Shown piece after piece: positions 592 to 58,984 of a stretch of DNA of 64,000 nucleotides (its first letter is position 1; every line of letters starts with the position of its first letter). A model generated the notes under the pieces. It had not been told where the DNA came from and searched no databases. It saw only the letters and a program-made list of their open reading frames with translations. This stretch comes from Opitutaceae bacterium (GTDB lineage: Bacteria; Verrucomicrobiota; Verrucomicrobiia; Opitutales; Opitutaceae), in the NCBI GenBank assembly GCA_005792355.1, contig SXSC01000050.1:1-64000 (forward strand). The letters are read 5' to 3'. The position numbers and the translations under genes are program-made.

Positions 592-777
592 ATGAGCGAC
601 AAAGAGATCGTGATCGATGCCATCCGAAAGCTGCCCGAAGACACCAAGCTTGACGACATCGTGGCGAATCTCGAGCTCCTGGGCAAAATTCGTGAGGGAC
701 ATGCCGATGCCGACGCGGGACGTGTTATTCCGCACGAGCAGGTCAAACGCGAATTTCGGTCGTGGATTACAAGCTAG
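592..777 (+). CDS. Putative antitoxin of a ParE-type toxin-antitoxin pair
   Basis: A 61-residue acidic protein starting MSDKEIVIDAIRKLPEDTKL. It overlaps the downstream ParE-like toxin gene by 16 bases, the usual arrangement for an antitoxin translationally coupled to its toxin. The size, the predicted helical N-terminus and the position directly before the toxin are the reasons for the call. I see no unmistakable DNA-binding motif. Its family would bind and neutralise the toxin through its C-terminal half and repress the shared promoter. The pair sits between gspE and gspF, 36 bases after the gspE stop, so it may be co-transcribed with the secretion genes. Confidence 0.65.
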   Translation: MSDKEIVIDAIRKLPEDTKLDDIVANLELLGKIREGHADADAGRVIPHEQVKREFRSWITS

Positions 778-1061
778 ACTGGTCGGTCCGCGCCCGCGCC
801 GATTTGCGGGAAATCGTAAGCGTCATTTCCGCCGACCGCCCGTTGGCGGTAGGCGGATGGGGCGAAGACTTGTTCCGGCACGTCGAGGTGTTGACCACTT
901 TTCCGTTGATTGGCCCCGTCATTCCACGAGTCTCCGTTCACCCGACGCGCCGCATCGTTTTTGGAGACTACCTCATATTCTACCGTGTTCATCAGGAGCC
1001 CAACGTGGTTGAACTCCTGACAATCTGGCATGGGGCCCGGGGCCTGCCCGATTTCCTCTGA
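762..1061 (+). CDS. RelE/ParE-superfamily toxin
   Basis: A 99-residue protein starting at GTG within the end of the antitoxin gene. It opens KLDWSVRARADLREIVSVIS, the typical N-terminal strand and helix of ParE toxins. It ends with VFGDYLIFYRVHQEPNVVELLTIWHGAR, the strand pair that closes the ParE fold with the usual late W-H-x-x-R. Family members act either on DNA gyrase (ParE) or on ribosome-bound mRNA (RelE). The WHGAR ending and helix-rich N-terminus look more like ParE, but the target cannot be read from sequence. The stop lies three bases before the gspF start, so the pair appears to have entered the gspE-gspF junction cleanly. Confidence 0.8.
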   Translation: MDYKLDWSVRARADLREIVSVISADRPLAVGGWGEDLFRHVEVLTTFPLIGPVIPRVSVHPTRRIVFGDYLIFYRVHQEPNVVELLTIWHGARGLPDFL

Positions 1062-2501: not shown

Positions 2502-5171
2502 CTAGAGCTTGAGCTGGAGCATCACGCCGAACCAGTTCACCCGATAGTTCATCGCGCCGCCGTCGAGGACGACGGCCGTGGGGGCGTTGGCGGGGTTCGG
2601 CGCAACGACGGGGTTGGCGTCGAGGTTGCGGTAGTGCCAGTCGCGAACCGTTTCCCATTGGTTGCGGTAGATTAGCCGCGCGGAAAGGCGGTCGCTGATC
2701 GGGAGGCGCAGGCTGGCGTCGAGGTAGCTGATGTCGGTTGCGAGATCGGGCATGCGGTCACCGGCGAAGACGGCGTTGGCCGCATTGATCGCGCCGCCGA
2801 TGCCGTATTGGTAGGCGATGCGGGTGCGCCCAAGCGAGTAGGAGTAGTCGACGTTGAGGGTGGCCTTGCCCAACTCCTGCTTGAGTCCGGCGCCGACGAC
2901 ATGGTTGCGATCGGTGCTCTTGGCGCTCCAGGCATTTCCCAGCGAGTAATAGCCGCCGCCGGGAGTAGGTCCGATGAGGGCGGCGTTTTCGGGGGTGATG
3001 ACGCCGAGCGGCGAGACGGCGCCGATCGTGACGTTGGCGCCGGAGGTGAGGGTGGCCTGCCGCATGCGGCCCTGCTGGTAAGAATAGAAGCCGTAGAGGT
3101 TCTGCTTCGGCGACGGCTGGTAATTAAGATCGAGGTTGGCGGAGTCCTGGCTCTCCTTGCCGCGGCCGAACGCGGCATCGGGGTAGCGCGATTCGCGAAG
3201 CTGGACGGAGATACCGGCGTCGAGATTGGAGCGCAGCATGGTGTCGAGGCGGACATTGGCGGTGTGCTGGTTGCGATCCGATAGCTCGTAGTTGCGGAGG
3301 GCGTTGTTGTTGCGCACGGCCCAGCTGGTGACGTTGGTGCCGATGGCGGTGGGCATGGGCACGAACGCCGCGCTAAAAGTGTTTTCGTAATAGGCGGCGA
3401 CGTAGCGGCTGCCGCGGCGCTGCGCGAATTCGTAGGAGGATCGCAGGGTGGAGCTGCGCAGGGCGCGGTTGACGTAACCGAATTTGTAGCGGTCTTCCCA
3501 GGTGCGCGCGCGTTCGCGGTTGGTGCGCTGGGTGATTTCGCGCTCGGCGGTGGCGGTGAGGTTGGAGGATTTCGTCAGCTGATAGTCCGCCGCGGGGCCG
3601 AGGCGATACTGCTTGGACGAGTAGAGCTGGTTGCGCACCACGACGCTGCCGGTGGGATTCGGGTTCGCGGAATAGAGCAAACCGCCGGAGCCGCTGGCGT
3701 CGTTGAGCGGGCGCCCCCAGACGCCGGTGAAGCCGCCGTAGGTGAGGCCGCGCGTTTGATTTCCCGCGGTGGCGGCATCGGCGTCGAGGTAAACGGCGTT
3801 GGGATTAACCGCGTAGTAGGGATCGCTGTTGTTGTCGGTCTCGTAGTAGCGCGCCTTGGCCTTGACGTTGAGCGCCGGGGTGGGATTGAGCGAAAGGGTG
3901 AGGTCGACGAGGCGCGTGTCGATGACGCCGCGGGCGGTGGCGCGGCTGAGGGAGCCGACGGTGTCCCACGCGCCGCCGGGCAGCAACGTGACGTTGGCCG
4001 AGGTAATTCCCGGAATCGTGGTGTAGGGGATCAGGTTGTCGTCCTGCCGCCACGAACCGGCGGAGACGACGGCGGTGAAGGAGCCCTTGAAGAAATCGGG
4101 GAGCGAGCGGGTGTATTCGGCGCGGGCGTTGTGGGCCTCGTTGCTCGGCGTGAGATCGAAGCGGCCCTGCGTGAACGCGCCGGCCGCGGGCGTGGTGGTG
4201 AAGCCTTGGGGTGCGATGCGGTAGGGCTCCTGGAACGTGAGCGTGCTGAGGTTGTTTTTGAACAGCGACGTGGTCCAGCGGAAGTTGAAGGCATTGAGGC
4301 CGCTCGCGTAGATGACCCCGGCGGAGATGTCCTCGGTGTCGTAGTCGATGGGCTCGACGATCTCCATGGCGGCGGTGCCGCCGTTGTTGCCCCAGACCGC
4401 GCCAAGGGGCCGGGTGCCCTCGCGTTTTTCCAGCGCGTAGCTGACGTAGGCTTTCCATGACTGGGACAAGGTGAGGTCGAGGCGGACGCCGCCGCGTTTG
4501 CGCGTGAGCCCGAGGGTGGTGGGCTTCCCGTTGAGGGCGGCGGCGGCCACGGCGGCGTTGTCGGCGGCGGTGGAGGCGGTGCCACCGGGAGTGAGGCCGG
4601 GCACGAGGACGAGCGTGCCGGTGCCGAGGCCGGTCCAGAGGCTCTTGTAATTGTCGGTGAAGATGTGGGGTGTCTCACTGAAATAGACTTTCACCTGCCA
4701 CGCGTTGGTGCGGCCGAAGTGCAGCCCGTAGTATTGATCGCGACGGCCGGCGCCGCCGGCGGTGAGATCGAGGAACGAGCCATCGGCCTTTTTGAGGAGG
4801 AGGCTGAGATTGTTGAGGTAGGCGCCTTGGTCGAGGTCCTGATACATCCGGTATTGCGCGTTGCGCTCGTCGGCGTCGCCGCCGATGTAGCCGAATTCCA
4901 ACTGGCCGGAATACTCCCAGCCCGACGCGGATTTCTTGAGGTCGGCGAGCTTGGGCACGCTGAAGGGCAGTTGGAACATCTGACCGCTGGGCGTGTGGTT
5001 CACGAGTGGCCAGTCGGGGTCGGCGGAGCGCGAGGCGGTGGCGGAGGCGCTCTCCTTGTTGCCGAGGGTGGTGCCGACGGCGGCGGAGGAACTGGCGAAA
5101 GCGGGCGCGGAAAGCACGGCGCCGAAGCTGAAGGTGAGGGCCGGGACTGCGCGGCGGAGATTCGTTTTCAT
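2502..5171 (-). CDS. MtrB/PioB-family decahaem-associated outer-membrane beta-barrel
   Basis: An 889-residue secreted barrel. In this family (MtrB, PioB, MtoB) a 26-28-strand porin encloses a periplasmic decahaem cytochrome and forms an electron path through the outer membrane. The second ATG (5171) was chosen because a signal peptide follows directly: MKTNLRRAVPALTFSFGAVL, with cleavage likely after PAFA. An in-frame ATG eight codons earlier is possible. The body alternates aromatic and polar residues in strand-like blocks (GWEYSGQLEFGYIGG, QYYGLHFGRTNAWQVKVYFS) and ends in a strand (RVNWFGVMLQLKL), a typical barrel C-terminus. The gene lies 24 bases downstream of the decahaem cytochrome gene, the defining context of the family. 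Electron direction (outward to minerals, or inward from iron) cannot be decided here. Confidence 0.85.
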   Translation of the reverse strand: MKTNLRRAVPALTFSFGAVLSAPAFASSSAAVGTTLGNKESASATASRSADPDWPLVNHTPSGQMFQLPFSVPKLADLKKSASGWEYSGQLEFGYIGGDADERNAQYRMYQDLDQGAYLNNLSLLLKKADGSFLDLTAGGAGRRDQYYGLHFGRTNAWQVKVYFSETPHIFTDNYKSLWTGLGTGTLVLVPGLTPGGTASTAADNAAVAAAALNGKPTTLGLTRKRGGVRLDLTLSQSWKAYVSYALEKREGTRPLGAVWGNNGGTAAMEIVEPIDYDTEDISAGVIYASGLNAFNFRWTTSLFKNNLSTLTFQEPYRIAPQGFTTTPAAGAFTQGRFDLTPSNEAHNARAEYTRSLPDFFKGSFTAVVSAGSWRQDDNLIPYTTIPGITSANVTLLPGGAWDTVGSLSRATARGVIDTRLVDLTLSLNPTPALNVKAKARYYETDNNSDPYYAVNPNAVYLDADAATAGNQTRGLTYGGFTGVWGRPLNDASGSGGLLYSANPNPTGSVVVRNQLYSSKQYRLGPAADYQLTKSSNLTATAEREITQRTNRERARTWEDRYKFGYVNRALRSSTLRSSYEFAQRRGSRYVAAYYENTFSAAFVPMPTAIGTNVTSWAVRNNNALRNYELSDRNQHTANVRLDTMLRSNLDAGISVQLRESRYPDAAFGRGKESQDSANLDLNYQPSPKQNLYGFYSYQQGRMRQATLTSGANVTIGAVSPLGVITPENAALIGPTPGGGYYSLGNAWSAKSTDRNHVVGAGLKQELGKATLNVDYSYSLGRTRIAYQYGIGGAINAANAVFAGDRMPDLATDISYLDASLRLPISDRLSARLIYRNQWETVRDWHYRNLDANPVVAPNPANAPTAVVLDGGAMNYRVNWFGVMLQLKL

Positions 5172-5195
5172 CGGGATGATCGGGGTGAAGCGCAC

Positions 5196-6179
5196 TCAGC
5201 GTTGGAAGCGGGCGCCCGCGGGATGGTTGCTGCCGTGGACCTGTGAGTGGCAGTTCAAGCACGAGCGGCCGAGGGCGCGAGAATTCGGCGCGGCGCCGCC
5301 GCCGAAAATCTGGCCCGCGTTGTAAAGGGGCCCCTGGTGGTTGGTGTTGCCGTGGCATTGCTGGCACGAGAAGGGCCGCGCGACCGTGAGCAGCTTGTCG
5401 TGATTGGAGCCGTGGGCGTTGTGGCAGTTCAGGCAGTTTTCGCGGACCGGCGCGTGCTCCCAGAGAAAGGGGCCGCGTTTGTCGGCATGGCAGTTGTAGC
5501 AGAGTTCGTTGACCGAATCTGACTTCATCGCCGACTTCGAAGTCGATCCGTGGGGGTTGTGGCAGTCGGCGCACGACATTTTTCCCTCGGGCAGCGGCAT
5601 GTGGGAGCGCTTCGCGAATTCCGCGCGCTGCTGCTGATGGCAGGTGTAGCACGTTTCGTTGATCGTGGGTTTTTTGAGGAGTCCGGCGGCGGAGACCTTG
5701 GCCATCGGATTGTGGCAATCGGAGCAGGCGAGCTGGTTGCGGCCGTGCGCCGAGCTATCCCAGTGCATCGCGTTGCCACCCGAGTGGCACTGCAGGCACA
5801 TGCCGTTTTGCGTCGCGACGGGCGTGCCCCATTCCTTGGTGAAACCGACGAGCAACCCCCGCTTCTCGGTGTCTTCGATATGTTTGGAGCCCGGCCCGTG
5901 GCAGGCCTCGCAACTGAGCTTTTCCTTTTCGTTCTTTGGATTCAGGCGAAACGCGTTCGCGTGCAGCGTGTGGCTAAACTGGGTGTTCTCCGGTTTGTGG
6001 CATTTGATGCAGACCGCCTCGCCGACGTTGCTGGCCCCCCCGTTGTCGGTCGGAGCGTTTGGCTTGGCCATGGCGCCGGCCGCCGGTTTCGCAATGGTGC
6101 CGGACACGAGCGCGATCGTGGCGAAGAGGCCAGCGGCGAGGCCGACCCGCGTGAACGAGAACAAGCGCAAAGTTTTCAT
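5196..6179 (-). CDS. Decahaem c-type cytochrome, MtrA/DmsE/PioA family
   Basis: A 327-residue exported cytochrome with ten CxxCH haem-attachment motifs, in order CIKCH, CEACH, CLQCH, CSDCH, CYTCH, CADCH, CYNCH, CLNCH, CQQCH and CLNCH. The N-terminus is a signal peptide (KTLRLFSFTRVGLAAGLFAT, then a hydrophobic run to about residue 30). Haem would be attached in the periplasm by the cytochrome c maturation system, which is not encoded here. Length and haem number match MtrA (about 330 residues, ten haems). Additional histidines between the motifs, for example SHTLHANAF and KRSHMPLP, would be distal ligands for bis-His haems. It is the first gene of a two-gene unit with the barrel protein. No third, surface-exposed MtrC-like multihaem gene is visible nearby, so the arrangement is MtoAB/PioAB-like. 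Confidence 0.93.
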   Translation of the reverse strand: MKTLRLFSFTRVGLAAGLFATIALVSGTIAKPAAGAMAKPNAPTDNGGASNVGEAVCIKCHKPENTQFSHTLHANAFRLNPKNEKEKLSCEACHGPGSKHIEDTEKRGLLVGFTKEWGTPVATQNGMCLQCHSGGNAMHWDSSAHGRNQLACSDCHNPMAKVSAAGLLKKPTINETCYTCHQQQRAEFAKRSHMPLPEGKMSCADCHNPHGSTSKSAMKSDSVNELCYNCHADKRGPFLWEHAPVRENCLNCHNAHGSNHDKLLTVARPFSCQQCHGNTNHQGPLYNAGQIFGGGAAPNSRALGRSCLNCHSQVHGSNHPAGARFQR

Positions 6180-11069: not shown

Positions 11070-12902
11070 CTACGGCACCTCGTACACCTCGACCAGCGCT
11101 TCCCCGGTGCCGTTGGCGATGCCGGACACCTGCGCGGAATAGGCGCCGGGCGGAAGGGTGACGAGCAACGCGGCATCGCGCGAACCAGCCTCGAGAGCGA
11201 AGGCCCCGACGGAGGCCGCCGTGGTGGCGAGGGTCGCGGACCAATTGTCGTTTTCGACAATCTTGGTGCCGGAGGCGTTGTAAATTTCGAGCTTCGGATC
11301 CACGAGCGTGCCGGGCACGCCGAAGCCCGCGAGGGTGGGGCCCACGGCGCGGATGAGCAGCGTCTTGGCGACACTGCCATCGACGACGAATCCGGTGATG
11401 AGAATGTTGTCGCCGGTCCCCACGAGATTGCGGGCGGAGACGTTGACGAGACGGACGGCGGTGCCGGTGCCGCTGTCGTAGAGTTCCACGAGCACGACAC
11501 CAGAGCTGTTGCCTTTGGCGTGGGTGCTGTGCGTACCCGAGACGGTGGCCTGGATGGCGGCATCCCGGCTGCCGTTGGTCAGCGCAAAGGCACCGACGGA
11601 CGCGAAGACCGGGGCGAGTGCCACGCTCCAATTGTCGTTTTGGCCAACCAGGGTGGGCGTCGAATTGTAGAGTTCGAGCCGGGGATCGTCGTAGGAGTCG
11701 GGCACGCCGAATGCACCCAGGGTGGGGCCGATGCCGCGAACGAGGACGCTCTTTGAGCCGTTGGTCGCGAATCCGACGATCAGGGTTGCACCGGCGGAGA
11801 GGCTGGTGCGGACGGAAAGATTGGCGAGGCGACCTTCACCCGCGCTGACGGCAAGCGTGGCGGCGTTGCTCGTCACCGACCCCGCGCTGCTGCTGATTTG
11901 GGCGGAATAGACCCCGGCGGCGGCGGCCGTGACCGCGGACAATTTGAGGGTGGCATCCGTCGCGCCGGAAATCGCCGTGCCGTCCTTGCGCCACTGATAC
12001 CCGGGCACGGGGGTGCCGGTCGCGACCACGGTGAGGGCGGCCGTGCCACCGGTGGCGACCGTGACCGGGATCGGGTGCGAAACCAGCGTGGGGGCGGTGC
12101 CACCGGGGACGCTGGCGACCGTGAGCGTGGCCGGGTTGCTGGTGACGGGACCGGCGGCATTGGTCGCGGTCACGGTGTAGGTGCCGGCGTTGGCGGATTG
12201 CACGTTGTTGAGCGTGAGCGTGGCAGCCGTGGCACCGGCGATACTGGTGCCGTTGCGCGCCCACTGAAACGTCGGGGCCGGCGTGCCGGCCGCCTGCACG
12301 GAAAACGTGACGGAAGCGCCGGCGGTGACCGACTGGCTTCGCGGCTGCACCGAAAACGTGGGCGCGACGTTGGCTGCGCCGCCAGTGATCACGAACGAGA
12401 TCCTCTCCTGCACGTTGTTGGTCAGACCTTCGAGATTGAAGCCTTGTACGGAGACGGAAAACGACCCGGCTTGGGTCGGAATGCCGGTGATGATGGGCGT
12501 CCCGGATCGGATGGTGCCGTTAGTGGGGGCGGGAATGAAAACCAGACCCGGGGGCAGCGATCCGGTAACGCGAAACGTCGCGGGCGGGCTGGGGGTGCCG
12601 CTGTAGGTGAACGCCACGTCGACGCGGGTGCCGACGGTACCGCTGACGGGATTGCCCGGCGACTGGATGAACGCAGTGGCGCCAGCGAGCGAGTGCGTGG
12701 CCCCAAGGGACGCCAGGGTGAGGGCCGTGCGCAGGAGCTCGCCGGCGCGCGAGGCGAGAACCTGGTCGCTGGCGCCCGCGAGCACCCGCACCGCCGGCGT
12801 GCGTTGGAGAAACGTCAGGAGCAGGCCGAGCGGAAGATTCAGCCACGGCAGGCTGCGGTGCAGCCGGGCAAGCACCTTGGTGGGAATCGGGAAAACGTCC
12901 AT
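11070..12902 (-). CDS. Ig-domain protein with paired C-terminal 'YEVP' modules
   Basis: A 610-residue protein, probably secreted, of unknown function. The N-terminus is atypical: MDVFPIPTKVLARLHRSLPW, then a hydrophobic stretch around residues 20-32 (LNLPLGLLLTFL) and another near 60-75. It could be a signal anchor or a misplaced start. Residues about 80-170 look like a putative-Ig (He_PIG) domain (TGSLPPGLVFIPAPTNGTI). Two Ig-like domains follow (PAPTFQWARNGTSIAGATAA and PVPGYQWRKDGTAISGATDA). Two C-terminal modules come next, each with RL(A/V)N(L/V)S(V/A)R, VR(G/A)(I/V)GPTL.(A)FGVP and NDNW; the final one ends ALVEVYEVP. A polypurine tract lies in the 173-base gap to the cyclophilin-Ig gene. 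Confidence 0.72.
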   Translation of the reverse strand: MDVFPIPTKVLARLHRSLPWLNLPLGLLLTFLQRTPAVRVLAGASDQVLASRAGELLRTALTLASLGATHSLAGATAFIQSPGNPVSGTVGTRVDVAFTYSGTPSPPATFRVTGSLPPGLVFIPAPTNGTIRSGTPIITGIPTQAGSFSVSVQGFNLEGLTNNVQERISFVITGGAANVAPTFSVQPRSQSVTAGASVTFSVQAAGTPAPTFQWARNGTSIAGATAATLTLNNVQSANAGTYTVTATNAAGPVTSNPATLTVASVPGGTAPTLVSHPIPVTVATGGTAALTVVATGTPVPGYQWRKDGTAISGATDATLKLSAVTAAAAGVYSAQISSSAGSVTSNAATLAVSAGEGRLANLSVRTSLSAGATLIVGFATNGSKSVLVRGIGPTLGAFGVPDSYDDPRLELYNSTPTLVGQNDNWSVALAPVFASVGAFALTNGSRDAAIQATVSGTHSTHAKGNSSGVVLVELYDSGTGTAVRLVNVSARNLVGTGDNILITGFVVDGSVAKTLLIRAVGPTLAGFGVPGTLVDPKLEIYNASGTKIVENDNWSATLATTAASVGAFALEAGSRDAALLVTLPPGAYSAQVSGIANGTGEALVEVYEVP

Positions 12903-18652: not shown

Positions 18653-19162
18653 TTAAGGTTTTTCGGCCAGGAGGGTTTCGAGGTTCTTGCGCAGTTCGGT
18701 TTCGGTGCGGTCGCCGTGAAATCCGGCGTGCAAAAAACGCACCCGGCCATCGCGGCCAATCAGGTAGCTGGTCGGCATGGCGGGTACGACGACCGATTGC
18801 ACGAGTTTCTTCCCGCGGTCGTGCAACGTGGGAAACGGCGGCGCGAGTTTTTTCACAAACGCCTCCGCCGCGGCGGATTTGTCGTCCAGCCCGATCGCGG
18901 CAATCACGAGGCCGCGCGGGGCGTACTCCTGGTGGAGCTTGGCGATCATCGGAAACGACGCTTTGCACGGGGCGCACCACGACGCCCAGAAATCGACGAG
19001 CACGACCTGGCCGGCCGTGGCGGGCAGCGGCCCGCCGGCGAGGCTCACGAGACCGGCGGAGACGAGCGAGGGAAACACGTCGCCGACTTTCACGTCGGCG
19101 CGGGCGGCGGGCGGGGTGATGAGCGCGAACAAAACGGCGAGTTGCAGCTTACGATACCACAT
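18653..19162 (-). CDS. TlpA/ResA-like thioredoxin-fold protein
   Basis: A 169-residue exported thioredoxin-family protein with an N-terminal signal (MWYRKLQLAVLFALITPPAA, cleavage near ARA-DV). The redox motif is WASWCAPCKASFPMIAKLH, with the WCxPC active site near residue 63. VPAMPTSYLIGRDGRVRFLH carries the cis-proline loop (VPAMPTSY) and the beta-sheet edge typical of TlpA. It would reduce disulfides in the periplasm, with electrons from a CcdA/DsbD-type protein not present here. Its ATG lies 14 bases inside the ApbE gene, so the two are translationally coupled. Its likeliest partner is the Cys-containing DUF4266 tail or a cytochrome-maturation client. Confidence 0.9.
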   Translation of the reverse strand: MWYRKLQLAVLFALITPPAARADVKVGDVFPSLVSAGLVSLAGGPLPATAGQVVLVDFWASWCAPCKASFPMIAKLHQEYAPRGLVIAAIGLDDKSAAAEAFVKKLAPPFPTLHDRGKKLVQSVVVPAMPTSYLIGRDGRVRFLHAGFHGDRTETELRKNLETLLAEKP

Positions 19163-20138
19163 AATTGAAAAAACCGCGGGTTTGGGCGCGGGCGTGTTCG
19201 GTCACCAGCAGGCCTTCGGCGCCGGGGCAGGCCTGGATGAATTCGATGCCCTTGGGTACGCCGAGCACAAAGGCGGTCGTCGAGAGCACCCCGGCTTGCA
19301 GGCAGCTCGCCGCCACCACCGTGGCCTGCAGACAACCGTTGGCCACCGGCCAGCCGGTGCGCGGATCGATGATGTGGCCGTACCGTTTTCCCGCGACGAT
19401 CCAGCGGCGGATGTAATCGCCGGAGGAGGCCACACCCTTGCCGATCACGGCGATGCTGCCGGCAGTCTCGGCCGGTCGCCGCGGATCTTCGAGGCCGATG
19501 TGCCACGCGGGTCGATCCGGCGGTGTGCCGACCGCGCGCAAATCGTGACCGAAGTCGACGAGCGCGTTCGTGATGCCATGGTCAGTGGCAATCTGCGCGG
19601 CGAGATCGACGGCGTATTCCTGGCCGAAGCCGCCGAAATCAAGCGCCATGCCCGGCGTGGGCAGGAACACTTTGCCGGCGGTCCGTTGCAATTTTTTCCA
19701 GCCCACCAGCTCACGCGCGGCGGCAATCTCCGCCGGCGCCGGCACCCGCGGTGCATCTGATTTGTAATTCCAGAGCTGGATCAGGGGCAGCGTCGTCGGA
19801 TCGAGGACCCCCTGCGTCATGAAATGCAGGGTGTCGCACAGCTTGAGCATTCCCTCCATCTCGGCGTCGACCTCGATCCAGTCGCGTCCGGCGGCGGCGT
19901 TGATGCGGCTGATCAGGCTGTCGGGGCGGAAGCGGGAGTATTTGGCCTCGAACGCCCCGACCCATGCGACCACGGCCCGCTCAAACGCCGCCGCCTGCGG
20001 GTCGCCACCCGGCGCGGCATACTGCACCGTGCACGAGGTGCCGAGCGCGGGAAACCCGAGCTTGCGCAACGGCAGGTGCGCGTTCGCCCCGGTGGGAGCG
20101 GGCGGCGGCGGGCGGCGGGATTGGGCGATGACGGCCAT
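19149..20138 (-). CDS. apbE: FAD:protein FMN transferase (ApbE)
   Basis: A 329-residue ApbE-family enzyme. This family transfers FMN from FAD to a Ser/Thr side chain of extracytoplasmic proteins using magnesium. Characteristic motifs are KYSRFRPDSLISRINAAAGR near residues 95-115, the glycine-rich MALDFGGFGQEYAVDLAA (canonical 'DLGGIGKGYAVD'), TNALVDFGHDLRAVG, and the metal-site region YGHIIDPRTGWPVANG. The usual signal peptide is not clear; the N-terminus is Pro/Arg-rich (MAVIAQSRRPPPPAP), so location is uncertain. There are eight bases between the DUF3570 stop and this start, and a 14-base overlap with the thioredoxin gene. No classical flavinylation target (NqrC/RnfG FMN-binding domain) is encoded nearby, so the substrate may be DUF3570 or DUF4266. 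Confidence 0.9.
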   Translation of the reverse strand: MAVIAQSRRPPPPAPTGANAHLPLRKLGFPALGTSCTVQYAAPGGDPQAAAFERAVVAWVGAFEAKYSRFRPDSLISRINAAAGRDWIEVDAEMEGMLKLCDTLHFMTQGVLDPTTLPLIQLWNYKSDAPRVPAPAEIAAARELVGWKKLQRTAGKVFLPTPGMALDFGGFGQEYAVDLAAQIATDHGITNALVDFGHDLRAVGTPPDRPAWHIGLEDPRRPAETAGSIAVIGKGVASSGDYIRRWIVAGKRYGHIIDPRTGWPVANGCLQATVVAASCLQAGVLSTTAFVLGVPKGIEFIQACPGAEGLLVTEHARAQTRGFFNYVVS

Positions 20139-20145
20139 GTCCGGT

Positions 20146-21306
20146 TCACCACGCGAAGCGGCCGCCGAGGGTGATGATGTTCGCGCGGCAGTAGGCGCTT
20201 TGCGGTGTCACGCGGTCCCTGCCACGCATGTCGTAGCGCTCGAACGCGGCGTCGAGCTGCCACGCCGCGGTCGCATTCCAGATGAGTTTCAATCCGTAGG
20301 TGAAAGTTCGCATCTTGGACAGGCGGTAGTCCGACGAGTAGAACGGACCCTGGGGGCGGGGCGGCCCGGCGGCGGGCACCACCGACGTGCCGTCGAGCCG
20401 GTAGTGGAAAAAGTCGGCGGCGCTCTGCTCGTAGAAACGCACGCCGGGGCGCAGAATCACGTGTTCGCCGAGGTGCTGGAACCAGGCAAGATCAAGGGTG
20501 TGCGCGGTGGTGTCGTAGCTATCATGATACAGCCGGTAACTGAGATCGACGGTCCCGTGCAGCCCGGGAAACGAGCGGTTGAGGCCGGCCAGTCCGATCC
20601 ACTTGTCGCGCTCCGCCGGGCGGTTTTCCGGGAACGTGAGCGGGAGCGACACGCCCGGGATGATCTCGGTGTTCTTCTGCACCAGCTTGTACGGGTCGGC
20701 GAGGAAGCCGCGCTGCCGGCCCCAGGTGAAATTCAGGGTGACGGAGGTCTGGGGATCGAGCAGCTGCGTGACACCCACGATGAGATCGTTGGTGCGTTTC
20801 CGGGCCCACGCCGTCTGGTAGAACACGCGGATGTCGTCGTCGGTGCCGGCGAGGCCGACGAGCAGGCTGGTGTTCTTCTGGTTGAAGTCGGTGATGGTGT
20901 TGAGCGACCAACCGGTGGAGACGTAGTCGCTCTCGCGGCTGTTGGCGGCGCCGAGCGCGAGGTTGATGCCCGCAAATTGCCGGGAGAGCGCGGCGTTCCA
21001 CGCCTTGCGCCGCTCGGTCAGTTGGGAGAGCGGCACCTGGTCGGAGCCGGCGGGGGCGGGCTGGCCGTTGGGCGTGGCACCGGCGATGGCGTCGATCACG
21101 CCTTCAATCTTCAGGCGCGTGGCGGTGCCGAGATCTTTTTCGAAGGACACCCCGTGGACTTTCACGGCGATGCGGCCGCCCATTTCCTGATAGTCCTGAT
21201 ATTTGTAGCGGACCGCATCCTCGGCGCGCAGGGCCCGCGGCGACAGCCAGAGAAGGAGCGCGGCGAGGACGGCGGCGCGGGCGGTGGAAGGCGGGAGCAG
21301 GTTCAT
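20146..21306 (-). CDS. DUF3570 predicted outer-membrane beta-barrel
   Basis: A 386-residue exported protein with a signal peptide (ARAAVLAALLLWLSPRALRA). The mature N-terminus (RYKYQDYQEMGGRIAVKVHG) and internal strands (TSLLVGLAGTDDDIRVFYQT, SVTLNFTWGRQRGF) are typical of DUF3570. Many aromatic-flanked strands and the C-terminal ANIITLGGRFAW suggest a barrel. Function is unknown. It begins the operon DUF3570-apbE-tlpA-DUF4266, whose order strongly suggests one extracytoplasmic redox function. The upstream region contains a GGTAAC half-site near 21368. Confidence 0.87.
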   Translation of the reverse strand: MNLLPPSTARAAVLAALLLWLSPRALRAEDAVRYKYQDYQEMGGRIAVKVHGVSFEKDLGTATRLKIEGVIDAIAGATPNGQPAPAGSDQVPLSQLTERRKAWNAALSRQFAGINLALGAANSRESDYVSTGWSLNTITDFNQKNTSLLVGLAGTDDDIRVFYQTAWARKRTNDLIVGVTQLLDPQTSVTLNFTWGRQRGFLADPYKLVQKNTEIIPGVSLPLTFPENRPAERDKWIGLAGLNRSFPGLHGTVDLSYRLYHDSYDTTAHTLDLAWFQHLGEHVILRPGVRFYEQSAADFFHYRLDGTSVVPAAGPPRPQGPFYSSDYRLSKMRTFTYGLKLIWNATAAWQLDAAFERYDMRGRDRVTPQSAYCRANIITLGGRFAW

Positions 21307-28808: not shown

Positions 28809-28938
28809 GGACGGTCCGTCGTCCGACCGGTATGGTGACGGGCGATTCGCCGACATGGCTGGCCGTGCAGGTGGAACGACTCCGTTCGACCTTTCACGCC
28901 GCTGGCCGCAGTTATTCCCGCTAAACTCCTCGTTTCCC

Positions 28939-30615
28939 ATGAATCCTCCGCTTCATCACCACCTCCGCCGGCGCATTCTCGCTCCCGCCGCGCTTCTCGC
29001 CCTGCTCTTCGTCCCGTGCGCCCGCGCCTGCGAGGCCTGCACCGCAGCGATGGCCATCCGCCTGCTCACCGGCGAGAGCCCATCCGCCCATGCCGCGGAA
29101 ATGGTCAGCCTTGTGAAAAATTCCAGCTGGGAGGGTTCGCAACAGCTGCTCTCCACCGTGCTCAACAGCGGCGCGATCATCTCGCCGACCGTCGCCGGCG
29201 CCGCGCGGTTAAGCCGGGCCCCGCTTGCGTTTGCCACTGCGACCGCGCCCGCTGCGGCGCCGGCCGCGAAGGCCCCCGCGCCGGCCGTGACCGCACCGCA
29301 CCCGTTCCAGTCGATTATCGACCGCGACAAGAAGCTCGGCATCTGGGAAACCAGCTACGTGAAACCCGGCACAGCCCCGGACAAGAAATTCACGCTCACG
29401 ATGGCCGAAGGCGACGTGTCGCTCGGCAACGGCGTCATCTACAGCGGATTCACGGTCAACGGCACCATCCCCGGCCCGACGCTCATCGCCGACGAAGGCG
29501 ATGTGGTTGAGATCACCGCGGTCAACAAGGGCGACGTGGCGCACGGCGTCTCGATGCACGCCGCCTACACGCAGACCTCGAAATACCTCGGCCGGATCAA
29601 CCCCGGCCAGACGAAGTCCCTCAGCTTCCGCGTCAATCATCCCGGCGTGTATATGTACCACTGTGCGCCCGGCGGCCACGCGATCCCGATGCACACGCTG
29701 CTCGGGCAGTACGGCATCATGGTCGTCAAGCCGAAGACGAAGAAATTCAAGATGGAGGAGGTCATGGGCCGCAAACCCGACATCGAGATCTACATGGTGC
29801 AGCACGAGCTGTTCAGCAGCGGCAAAGACGCCGTCGAGGGCCGCGCCGCGTACGTGTTGTTCAACGGCAAACTTTTCCGCTACGCCGAGAGCCCGATCAA
29901 GGCGCGGCCCGGTGATTTTGTGCGCGTGAACTTTCTCAATGTCGGGCCGAATCTCACCGCCACCTTCCACCTGGTGGGGATCATCTGGGACTACGCCTAC
30001 TGGCAGGGCATGCCCACGCCGGAGAACACCTTTACCGGCGGGCAGACCGTCATCGCCGGACCCTCGGATTCCTGGGTGGTCGACTTCCGGGTTCCGCCCG
30101 ACGAGGGCGCCTATTTGATTGTGACGCACTCCTTCGGCAGCGCGACGCGCGGCGCCATCGGAATCCTGCAGGCGACGAAGGATGCGGAACGCGACGCGAT
30201 CGTGCTCGCCGACGGCCCGCGGCAGACTCCGGAAGCGATCGAGGCGCTCAAGGCCAAAGCCGTGCGCATCATCTCACCGTTCCAACCGGGCACCGACGAT
30301 CTCACCAACCCCTATGTGCTGCCGCCCGGCCTGAAAAAGCTGCGCGTGCAAATCATCGGCAACTCCTACTGGCCAAAGGTCGCAGTCGTGCCGCCGGGCA
30401 CCACGGTCGAGTGGATTAACGAGGACGTGTTCACTTTCTACAACGGCGAGTTCGCCGGGGTCCACGATGTCGTGACACGCGAAGCGCCCGAACATTTCAC
30501 TTCGAAGATGCTCGGGCACGCCGAGACCTTCAGCAAGGTGCTCGAGAAAAAAGGCACGTACCAATACTATTGCACGCCGCACCCTTATATGGAGGCGATC
30601 ATCCGAGTGGAGTGA
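28939..30615 (+). CDS. NirK-like multicopper protein with an extra C-terminal cupredoxin domain
   Basis: A 558-residue exported protein. The ATG at 28939 precedes a signal peptide (RRRILAPAALLALLFVPCAR). After an Ala/Pro linker come two cupredoxin domains of the copper nitrite reductase type, then a third plastocyanin-like domain from about residue 480. By eye alignment the type-2 copper histidines are present: H207 (SMHAAY), H241 (YHCAP) and H397 (VTHSFGSATRG); the catalytic second-domain His is H344. The type-1 site has H202, C242 and H252, but Gln257 sits where NirK has the axial Met. Ser205 replaces the catalytic Asp of HNVDFHAA. The C-terminal domain has an intact type-1 set: H509, C545, H548, M551. 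It may reduce nitrite with unusual properties, or be another multicopper oxidase. The mature N-terminus carries CEAC. Confidence 0.82.
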   Translation: MNPPLHHHLRRRILAPAALLALLFVPCARACEACTAAMAIRLLTGESPSAHAAEMVSLVKNSSWEGSQQLLSTVLNSGAIISPTVAGAARLSRAPLAFATATAPAAAPAAKAPAPAVTAPHPFQSIIDRDKKLGIWETSYVKPGTAPDKKFTLTMAEGDVSLGNGVIYSGFTVNGTIPGPTLIADEGDVVEITAVNKGDVAHGVSMHAAYTQTSKYLGRINPGQTKSLSFRVNHPGVYMYHCAPGGHAIPMHTLLGQYGIMVVKPKTKKFKMEEVMGRKPDIEIYMVQHELFSSGKDAVEGRAAYVLFNGKLFRYAESPIKARPGDFVRVNFLNVGPNLTATFHLVGIIWDYAYWQGMPTPENTFTGGQTVIAGPSDSWVVDFRVPPDEGAYLIVTHSFGSATRGAIGILQATKDAERDAIVLADGPRQTPEAIEALKAKAVRIISPFQPGTDDLTNPYVLPPGLKKLRVQIIGNSYWPKVAVVPPGTTVEWINEDVFTFYNGEFAGVHDVVTREAPEHFTSKMLGHAETFSKVLEKKGTYQYYCTPHPYMEAIIRVE

Positions 30616-56845: not shown

Positions 56846-58984
56846 TCATTCCTTCAAACCGAGTTCCGCCTTCATTCGCGCCAGCGTCGCGCGCGCGAGT
56901 TGGTATTCCTCCACGCAGTTCATTTTTTCGAGCAACTGCGGCAGCCGCGGGTCGCTGCGCACGGGGTCCCACATCGGCCAGTAGAAGAAGCGGGGGATGC
57001 CCGACGAAATGGTCCGCTCCAGGTACGGCACCGCCTCGCTGTGCCGATCCAGGGCGGCGAGGACAAATCCGCGCAAGATATTGTCGGCGGACAACCGGCC
57101 AAAAATCAGTTCGGCATGGGCCGCGGCTTCGGCCCGTAATCCCGCGACCCGCAGGACGTGAATTGCCTGCGCATCGCCCCACCATCTCGGTTGCAGGTCC
57201 GGATGGCGAATCACATACCGCGCCGCCGCCACCGCCGCCTCCGTGCGACCGAGCGCCGAAAGAATCAGGGCGTGGATGGCATGGAGGGGAATGAATCCTT
57301 CGGGGCGCAGGACCAGCGACTTCGCGATGGCGGCCAGGGCATCGGCGAACCGGCCCGCCTCGTACAAATGAAACGAATAAATCGCCAGTGAGATTGTGGA
57401 AAGCGGGTCGAGCGCCAGCGCGCGTTCAAGCGCGGCGAGCGAAAGGTCGGGCCGGCCGCGCGTGGTGAGGAGATGCCCGTGCCAGTGGTGCGCCCACGCG
57501 TAATTGCGGTTCAACGCAAACGCGCGCTGAAACTGCTCCTCGGACTCGGCGAAGCGGCGCTCGTTGTACAACACGGCCCCCAAGGTGGCGTAGGGTCCGG
57601 CCAGGTTGAGGAGGAGTTCCTGCGCCCGACGAATCGAGGCTTTGGCCCGGGTAAATTCATCGCTCACGCTCGTCTCGCCCGCCAGCAGCCGATACCACCC
57701 GCGACTCGCCCAGTTGTCGGCCAGGCTGGCGTGCGCCTCCGCAAACTGGGGATCGAGTTCGATGGCGCGGCTGAAAGCGGCGTCCGCCCGCGCAAAGTCG
57801 GTGCGCAAATTCCAAAAATGCCGACCTTCCAGCACCGCCCGGTGCGCCTCCGGGTTGACGGTCTTCGTCGCCCGCTGCGTCTCGCTGAGCCGGAGCTGGA
57901 GATTTTGGGCGATCAGCCCGGCGATCTCATCCTGCACCGCGAAAATATCCTTCAGTTCGCGCGTAAACGTGTCGGACCACATCCGGAACCCATCGCGCGC
58001 ATGGTTGAGCTGGGCGGAGATCTTCACCCGGGATCCCACCCTCTGCACGCTGCCTTCCACCACATAGGCTACGTTGAGTTTTGCGGCGATCTCGGAGATC
58101 GGAGTGTTGGTGCCCTTGAAATGAAACGCCGAAGCCCGGGCTGAAACCCGCAGATCGGGAATCTTCGCCAGCACATTTGCCAGTTCCTCGCTGATTCCGT
58201 CTGAGAAATGCTCGTTTTCCTTGTCTTCGCTGAGATTGACGAAGGCGAGCACGGCGACGGATTTGGCGGGAGACGGGGTGGCCAAATCTGCCGGCGGTTT
58301 CACCGCGGCAGCGGGCGGTGGGGCAGGGGTCGCGGGACTTTGCCGGCCAGCGGGAGGCCGCAGGGGGGCGGGAGAACCGGTGGCGGTTGGCCCCAGCCAC
58401 TTCCATGCCCCTGCTCCGGCGATGGCAACGATCGCCATGACCGCCGCCCAAGCCCACACCGGAATCCGTCGGGTCGCCCGCTTAAACCCGGCGGGCGCTC
58501 CGCCGGGGCTTTTTCGCGAGGGGGGCGGCGGCGCCTGGGCTCCTTCGTTGCCCTCGACCAGTTGCGCCACCCGCCGGACAAATGCATCGGGCGCCTCGCC
58601 GTGCGGCAGGCGGGACCACTGGACTTGCAGGAATGCCCGCGGCACCAGCGCGGACCGCTCCGGCGTGTCGTCCACACACACCGGCACCAGGAACGGCACT
58701 CCCTCAGCGATGTCCTCCAGGCGCTCCACCGCCTGCTTCCATTCCCGCCGAAAGTAACCCTCCTTCCGGTTTTGCGTGTGGGCCGAGATAATCGGCACGA
58801 ACAACGCGCAATCGTGGATCTGCCGACGGATTTCCTGATCCCAGGCGTCGCCGCCGCGCAAGTCGTTTTGATCGAACCACACTTCGACGCCCAGTCCGCG
58901 CAACGCTTCCGCGATGCGCCGCGTGGCGTCCACGTCTTCGCGCGCGTAGCTCAAAAACACCGCCTTTTCCGCGGTGGTTCTCAT
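56846..58984 (-). CDS. TIR-domain protein with membrane helix, FlgO-like domain and TPR repeats
   Basis: A 712-residue protein. Residues 1-140 form a TIR domain: KAVFLSYAREDVDATRRIAE, VEVWFDQNDLRGGDAWDQEI, FVPIISAHTQNRKEGYFRRE, WKQAVERLEDIAEG. A glutamate in EWKQAVE sits where TIR NADases have their catalytic Glu. A membrane helix is near residues 172-194 (VWAWAAVMAIVAIAGAGAW). After a Pro-rich linker comes a domain (SVAVLAFVNLSEDKENEHFS, AKLNVAYVVEGSVQRVGSRV) common in bacterial adenylyl-cyclase and TolB-like proteins. TPR repeats follow to the C-terminus. Whether it is signalling or an immune effector cannot be told; no partner gene is adjacent. Confidence 0.88.
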   Translation of the reverse strand: MRTTAEKAVFLSYAREDVDATRRIAEALRGLGVEVWFDQNDLRGGDAWDQEIRRQIHDCALFVPIISAHTQNRKEGYFRREWKQAVERLEDIAEGVPFLVPVCVDDTPERSALVPRAFLQVQWSRLPHGEAPDAFVRRVAQLVEGNEGAQAPPPPSRKSPGGAPAGFKRATRRIPVWAWAAVMAIVAIAGAGAWKWLGPTATGSPAPLRPPAGRQSPATPAPPPAAAVKPPADLATPSPAKSVAVLAFVNLSEDKENEHFSDGISEELANVLAKIPDLRVSARASAFHFKGTNTPISEIAAKLNVAYVVEGSVQRVGSRVKISAQLNHARDGFRMWSDTFTRELKDIFAVQDEIAGLIAQNLQLRLSETQRATKTVNPEAHRAVLEGRHFWNLRTDFARADAAFSRAIELDPQFAEAHASLADNWASRGWYRLLAGETSVSDEFTRAKASIRRAQELLLNLAGPYATLGAVLYNERRFAESEEQFQRAFALNRNYAWAHHWHGHLLTTRGRPDLSLAALERALALDPLSTISLAIYSFHLYEAGRFADALAAIAKSLVLRPEGFIPLHAIHALILSALGRTEAAVAAARYVIRHPDLQPRWWGDAQAIHVLRVAGLRAEAAAHAELIFGRLSADNILRGFVLAALDRHSEAVPYLERTISSGIPRFFYWPMWDPVRSDPRLPQLLEKMNCVEEYQLARATLARMKAELGLKE

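Follow-up and report, generated by a model that had tools for sequence, protein, structure and literature searches.

The contig SXSC01000050.1 (C403; 78,557 bases) belongs to the genome of an Opitutaceae bacterium (GCA_005792355.1). Its first 64 kb are the stretch of DNA analysed here, hereafter called the window. Close to the start of the window two co-oriented genes encode a putative outer-membrane electron conduit of the MtrAB type:

5196-6179, minus strand: mtrA/mtoA-like gene encoding a periplasmic decahaem c-type cytochrome of the DmsE family, 327 amino acids, ATG start (TIGR03508, phmmer, ten CXXCH motifs)
2502-5171, minus strand: mtrB/mtoB-like gene encoding an outer-membrane barrel, 889 amino acids from the ATG at 5171 (PF11854, TIGR03509, fold)

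Twenty-four bases separate the stop codon of the cytochrome gene from the ATG of the barrel gene, and the barrel is 897 amino acids long if the GTG at 5195 is taken as its start. The CXXCH motifs of the cytochrome start at residues 57, 90, 128, 152, 177, 203, 227, 249, 272 and 307, and the barrel does not contain a single cysteine. Coordinates, lengths, gene order, spacing and the number of haem motifs are all as given in a preliminary description of this DNA; the signal peptide that it also ascribed to the cytochrome has been judged by eye only.

We assessed the family membership of both proteins using profile searches. The cytochrome reaches 264.7 bits against TIGR03508, the DmsE/MtrA decahaem model (cut-off 192.2), and covers positions 1-257 of its 258. 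The barrel exceeds the cut-offs of both PF11854 (335.4 bits, cut-off 23) and TIGR03509, the MtrB/PioB model (261.9 bits, cut-off 240.05). The MtrAB/PioAB-like identity proposed in the preliminary description is therefore supported for both genes. Against the decahaem family GSU2203 the cytochrome remains below the cut-off (238.8 bits, cut-off 325). A soluble nitrite-reductase cytochrome, named beforehand as the alternative, was rejected, as PRK11659 gave just 50.3 bits at a cut-off of 184. Control searches gave matches under the cut-offs only, with PF11854 in Caulobacter vibrioides and with TIGR03508 in three named control genomes. The best solved relatives come from one and the same Mtr complex, namely 6r2q_A for the cytochrome (phmmer, E 1.3e-66) and 6r2q_B for the barrel (E 4.1e-9). 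An AlphaFold2 model of the barrel, built from a 22-row alignment (predicted local distance difference test (pLDDT) 75.7, predicted template modelling score (pTM) 0.71), superposes on 644 of the 649 residues of the solved MtrB 6r2q_B at 2.3 Å with a Z of 23.4, the runner-up reaching 14.5. By this model the barrel is predicted to have the MtrB fold.

Among the 475 six-frame open reading frames (ORFs) of at least 50 amino acids in the window, two or more CXXCH motifs occur in the cytochrome only, and a single motif occurs in one other ORF (11836-12264, minus strand). None of the 121 ORFs in the final 16.6 kb of the contig contains the motif. Since no other ORF of the contig has two or more, the clustering does not reflect a background frequency; together with the family scores, this six-frame count excludes a chance or misframed ORF. 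It also agrees with the earlier statement that no MtrC-like cytochrome is encoded nearby: no other multihaem ORF exists on the entire contig, which starts just 2.5 kb downstream of mtrB, the genome as a whole not having been searched with an MtrC-specific model. The same count left no candidate for mtoD or imoA/cymA in the cluster, as no CXXCH ORF lies within 5 kb of the pair. Neither pioC, which encodes a high-potential iron-sulphur protein (HiPIP), nor an azurin-like gene was found beside the pair, the downstream neighbour being a T2SSF gene on the other strand at a distance of 165 bases and the upstream neighbour encoding a DMFA2_C protein.

Scanning species-representative genomes with an alignment of the family yielded 80 named loci. 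In 78 of them the cytochrome gene is followed by a barrel gene; for the remaining two, L140 and L171, the sequence of the contig stops soon after the cytochrome gene. Taken together, the pair is almost certainly a genuine porin-cytochrome conduit of the MtrAB/MtoAB/PioAB class. The two proteins would form a complex and pass electrons across the outer membrane, and the organism may by this route exchange electrons with a substrate outside the cell.

Two methionines distinguish the window cytochrome from the MtrA of Shewanella baltica:

5703-5705, minus strand: codon of Met159, candidate axial ligand of a His/Met haem, three residues past the fourth CXXCH; a His occupies this spacing in S. baltica MtrA
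5598-5600, minus strand: codon of Met194, second and less certain candidate ligand (KRSHMP, KRSSHP in S. baltica)

In the alignment Met159 reads as a clean His-to-Met substitution. Met194 is the less certain ligand because His193 adjoins it. At least one haem of the chain is probably of the high-potential His/Met kind. Li is said to have reported His/Met haem ligation for PioA in 2020. Papers are cited below by PubMed Central (PMC) number. The published redox windows extend from -400 to +250 mV for PioA, from -400 to +100 mV for MtoA and from -400 to -100 mV for MtrA (PMC12203936). Both methionines are present in all 20 Verrucomicrobiota rows and in all 61 other rows of the named set, counts that are biased as the two retrieval patterns themselves contained both residues. 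We therefore turned to a sample free of this bias, the class to which Methylobacter luteus belongs, in which a decahaem cytochrome over the cut-off was found in 25 of 369 genomes, the seed among them. It provided 25 readable loci (L221-L246 without L244, which had no usable ORF for this reading; the locus of the seed genome, L217, was excluded). One of them has both methionines (L242), one has the second only (L243) and the rest have neither. With Met159 in 1 of 25 loci, the window cytochrome belongs to a minority subtype within this gammaproteobacterial sample. A simple motif search found no HiPIP near three alphaproteobacterial loci with Met159 (L252-L254). Both types can occur in one genome: the Aromatoleum toluclasticum genome (G554; L211, L218, L220, L285) encodes four DmsE-family decahaem cytochromes over the cut-off, one Met-type and three His-type. 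In the cytochrome of a metagenome-assembled genome (MAG) from Lake Baikal (L086 10420-11442, L128 7769-8791) CEACR replaces the second CXXCH, leaving nine motifs.

Verrucomicrobiota account for 19 of the 80 named loci (L113-L130 and L152), mostly MAGs of Opitutae or Opitutaceae. In a cytochrome tree of 81 rows (quick method, unrooted, support by the Shimodaira-Hasegawa-like approximate likelihood ratio test only) the window sequence and these 19 form a single clade with a support of 100, and every other row is from Pseudomonadota. FastTree recovered the same 20-row clade for the barrels. Closest to this clade are rows from Thauera, Rhodocyclales and Azonexus, with an identity to the window of at most 62% for the cytochrome and about 45% for the barrel (both L137). 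The distribution is patchy. A cytochrome over the cut-off was detected in 2 of 387 sampled genomes of the phylum, the window's own and one of its family; PF11854 matched 29 of 200 genomes of the family at E 0.001, strongly (>200 bits) in 12 of them, the window's own included. Among plasmids, nine records contained relatives, one full-length (Photobacterium, 33.7%) and the rest partial sequences from E. coli, mostly annotated as nrfB. The simplest account is one transfer into the Opitutaceae followed by patchy inheritance.

An azurin-like gene directly follows mtrB in 10 of the 19 named Verrucomicrobiota loci, or in 10 of the 15 that can be assessed: L114, L121 and L124 end within mtrB, and L123 ends 159 bases past it. 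PF00127 was found in all five mtrB-linked proteins scanned. One of the mtrB-linked proteins scored 64.7 against the NCBIfam azurin model, under the cut-off of 105.1, for which reason we use the name azurin-like. Within the 200 family genomes the seven top azurin scores (263-301 bits) all belong to genes beside mtrB, the next score being 191. This top-scoring type occurs in 7 of the 12 genomes with a strong mtrB match and in none of the 188 others (p = 3.5e-10, to be taken as a guide only since the genomes are related). On the cytochrome tree the linked gene requires at least four gains or losses across 18 scored rows, with L124 scored as present (a different contig of its genome has the azurin-like gene after the mtrB end) and L121 as absent (no such type in the genome). 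In L152, from the same genome as L088, the linked gene carries an in-frame stop (L088 4747-5016, L152 11708-12166) and is either a pseudogene or affected by a sequence error.

The same slot is occupied by two dihaem Cytochrom_C genes in Thauera sp. Sel9 and Azonexus (confirmed for L131 and L135), and by two dihaem ORFs, identified by motif count, in many other betaproteobacterial loci. L146 and L192 possess dihaem cytochromes plus an azurin-like gene. Unrelated folds, usually of high-potential types, in one slot are the main argument for electron uptake, the potentials being those usual for such types. PMC5566968 gives MtoD-like cytochromes or a HiPIP as the carriers of MtoAB/PioAB clusters, and the words azurin, cupredoxin and plastocyanin do not occur in it. 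MtoD, a high-potential carrier encoded in the Mto cluster, has been proposed to pass electrons on to a terminal oxidase (PMC13390432). A literature search for MtrAB together with azurin surfaced one general review. In the window genome a search for azurin-like proteins (E 0.01) gave matches on contigs C33, C210, C109 and C71 only, the one on C33 lying next to an oxidase cluster:

L197 (contig C33) 8854-9438, minus strand: azurin-like gene, divergent from the oxidase genes
L197 (contig C33) 9541-13796, plus strand: COX2-cytochrome c, COX1 and COX3 genes

Further electron-transfer genes of the genome are concentrated on contig C40:

L074 10841-19976 and L075 207-13943: electron-transfer island
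L075 7515-9791 and L075 11568-13943: barrels of the two short-cytochrome pairs

The island comprises two pairs of a shorter cytochrome with seven CXXCH motifs and a barrel without Pfam match, NrfD/iron-sulphur genes with tetrahaem cytochromes, and two multihaem proteins with a cytochrome-b561-like part, one of 987 amino acids (PF01292 46.0 bits, over the cut-off) and one of 758 (27.3 bits, below the cut-off of 30.1). We take these two multihaem/cytochrome-b proteins to be CbcL/MtoC-like. The short cytochromes match TIGR03508 partially, in its C-terminal half and under the cut-off. No other protein of the genome is over the cut-off, so that a further genuine MtrA besides that of the window was rejected. 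Aligned as profiles, the C40 barrel and MtrB gave an hhalign probability of 96.3% (E 1.9e-9). The structural model of the C40 barrel is poor (pLDDT 58.1): Foldseek ranked 6r2q_B first at a root mean square deviation of 25.7 Å and with close runners-up, and the 50 VIA matches listed contain TonB-dependent transporters and other barrels, 6r2q_B not being among them. From the profile comparison the C40 barrels look like distant relatives of MtrB. The pairs would correspond to the 'novel porin-MHC' (multihaem cytochrome) system of PMC5615132, which may then be a distant relative of MtrAB, though that paper calls it novel and non-homologous. Strong matches to mtrB or the cytochrome were seen in 15 genomes, and all of these but G031, hence 14, encode at least one short cytochrome; the 15 include G146, where the decahaem cytochrome is missing because the contig begins just before mtrB. 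In one locus (L130 7605-16899) a single contig has mtrAB and a short-cytochrome/barrel pair some 6 kb or less apart, and between them lies a gene with one CXXCH motif. Export conduits may therefore coexist with the MtrAB pair in the same genome.

We also compared the surroundings of Met-type and His-type loci, counting any other protein of at least 300 amino acids with at least six CXXCH motifs near the locus. The comparison covered 33 loci with a readable cytochrome, namely five alphaproteobacterial loci, the 25 loci of the class sample and three from Aromatoleum; L282 gave no MtrA. Such a neighbour was present at 11 of the 27 His-type loci, at none of the five Met159 loci and not at the one locus with Met at 194 only. 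It was likewise absent from all 80 named Met-type loci, setting aside a tandem second MtrA in L178.

Based on these observations we favour an inward direction of electron flow, with a probability of roughly 0.58: an MtoAB/PioAB-like uptake of electrons to high-potential periplasmic carriers. The decahaem chain inside the barrel would conduct electrons across the outer membrane, no MtrC being needed on the outside. At the cell surface, iron or humics in the reduced state would donate to the outer haem, and the electrons would move down the haem chain to a high-potential periplasmic carrier. This carrier would probably be the azurin-like protein of the same cluster in most readable relatives and perhaps, in the window genome, the general azurin-like protein encoded beside cytochrome oxidase; from there the electrons would pass to the oxidase. 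More tentatively, an Opitutaceae lineage may have acquired a MtrC-less, Met-type MtoAB of betaproteobacterial type and coupled it to an azurin-like carrier that replaces the cytochromes c or HiPIP of known pathways. Verrucomicrobiota would then oxidise Fe(II) or reduced humics lithoheterotrophically by way of azurin, and the window genome, while keeping the conduit, would either have lost its dedicated carrier or have been without one from the start.

Several observations weigh against electron uptake. The window lacks an azurin-like gene after mtrB, the gene of its genome on C33 is more distant (147.5 bits), and azurin-like matches are in any case widespread among its relatives (164 of 200 family genomes at E 1e-10). 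The difference in large multihaem neighbours (11 of 27 loci against 0 of 5) does not reach significance (Fisher p = 0.14); two of the five Met159 loci (L254 and L285) come from hand-picked genomes, and several of the stretches are short. The 80 named loci, in turn, are interrelated and were retrieved through the methionines. MtoA and PioA do not form a function-specific clade (PMC8805035), and a contact between MtoD and MtoA was not found (PMC13390432). RuBisCO was found in none of seven genomes, six of them Opitutae, in a sample that did not include the window genome, so that lithoautotrophy is not indicated for them. Finally, the multihaem/cytochrome-b proteins, the NrfD/iron-sulphur genes and the two porin-cytochrome pairs of C40 could serve electron export.

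These C40 genes lead to the opposite direction, in which quinol oxidation by the multihaem/cytochrome-b or NrfD/iron-sulphur proteins would feed periplasmic cytochromes and the window pair would reduce Fe(III) or humics under anoxia. In S. oneidensis, Fe(III) can be reduced by MtrAB without MtrC (PMC4245776), and the porin-MHC genes of Verrucomicrobia have been linked to a humic bog (PMC5615132). We consider outward flow a serious rival, though less probable than uptake in view of the Met-type cytochrome, the high-potential carriers neighbouring the pair in relatives and the lack of MtrC; besides, the C40 enzymes may have the C40 porin-cytochrome pairs as their partners instead. Another thought is that the contig is a contaminant or the pair a silent, recently acquired relic, as the contamination value of the genome (5.06) and the patchy distribution might suggest. 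This is very improbable: the pair falls within the 20-row Verrucomicrobiota clade in both trees, both genes are intact with all ten haem motifs kept, and the contig encodes dnaA, ligA and gcpE (the kinship of these three genes was not compared). Still more improbable is a DmsEF-like conduit serving an extracellular reductase of the dimethyl sulfoxide or iodate type. The cytochrome model does bear the name of the DmsE family, but the best solved match is MtrA (6r2q_A), and a scan of 26 window proteins (25 of the 54 called genes and the ORF at 4-555) brought up no molybdopterin enzyme.

Among the closest known systems, MtoAB of Sideroxydans lithotrophicus ES-1, set beside the window by description, likewise combines a decahaem cytochrome with an MtrB-class barrel and lacks a surface MtrC (PMC5566968), and the cytochrome of a Sideroxydans MAG (L169) is also Met-type, with 58% identity in the best segment. 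The window differs from MtoAB in its Opitutaceae host, in the absence of mtoD, imoA or another cytochrome c gene alongside, and in the azurin-like gene of many relatives. PioABC of Rhodopseudomonas palustris TIE-1, compared by description and not by sequence, shares a PioA/PioB-class pair without MtrC, whereas the window has no pioC and its cytochrome no long N-terminal extension. With MtrCAB of Shewanella (6r2q) the window has the barrel fold and the decahaem family in common; it differs in lacking MtrC, in the His-to-Met change at residue 159 and in its larger barrel (889 against 695 amino acids). The mtrAB genes of Thauera, Pseudothauera and Azonexus (L131, L133, L135-L137) are Met-type and represent the closest pairs outside Verrucomicrobiota; their slot after mtrB encodes two dihaem proteins, against the azurin-like gene of many window relatives.

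The literature on Mtr/Mto/Pio-class conduits deals chiefly with Pseudomonadota and a small number of other phyla. In 2017 a different porin-multihaem system was described in Verrucomicrobia including Opitutus, homologues of the Shewanella and Geobacter systems being absent from the MAGs of that study (PMC5615132); unlike the window pair, its presumed C40 representatives have a shorter cytochrome with seven CXXCH motifs and a barrel without Pfam match at a separate locus. Non-homologous porin-cytochrome genes and Cyc2 (PMC6344600) as well as four CbcL/MtoC/MtrH homologues and one ImcH homologue (PMC6295460) have also been reported from Verrucomicrobia, and the word 'Verrucomicrobi' is missing from the main texts of two conduit surveys (PMC8805035, PMC10654088). 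Our searches of the open-licence PMC literature, outside of which most subscription journals lie, brought up no description of an MtrAB/MtoAB-family pair from Verrucomicrobiota in the texts consulted, although one further paper, PMC11169877, contains both 'verrucomicrobi' and 'mtrab'. The earlier remark that such electron exchange is little described in this phylum needs qualifying, since other porin-multihaem and Cyc2 genes have been reported from it. New here are the Verrucomicrobiota mtrAB clade, its Met-type cytochrome, the linked azurin-like gene of relatives and the C40 pairs.

Some other genes of the window are listed for completeness:

762-1061, plus strand: ParE-toxin-like gene between the T2SSE and T2SSF genes
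18653-21306, minus strand: genes for a thioredoxin-like protein, ApbE and DUF3570 in succession, a composition described for a flavinylation-based redox cluster (PMC8238504); the usual DUF4266 partner was not identified
28855-30615, plus strand: multicopper oxidase with a C-terminal plastocyanin/azurin-like domain
56846-58984, minus strand: TIR domain fused to TPR repeats

The type of conduit encoded by the window is already known, and its host lineage has been little reported. Should the role of the relatives' linked azurin-like gene be demonstrated, it would make for a new variant. Together, the azurin-like neighbour and the Met substitution make the question of direction open to simple redox and expression tests. 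The Opitutaceae clade, several MAGs of which come from lakes, a pond or groundwater, would add a group that is possibly active in the redox cycling of iron and humics.

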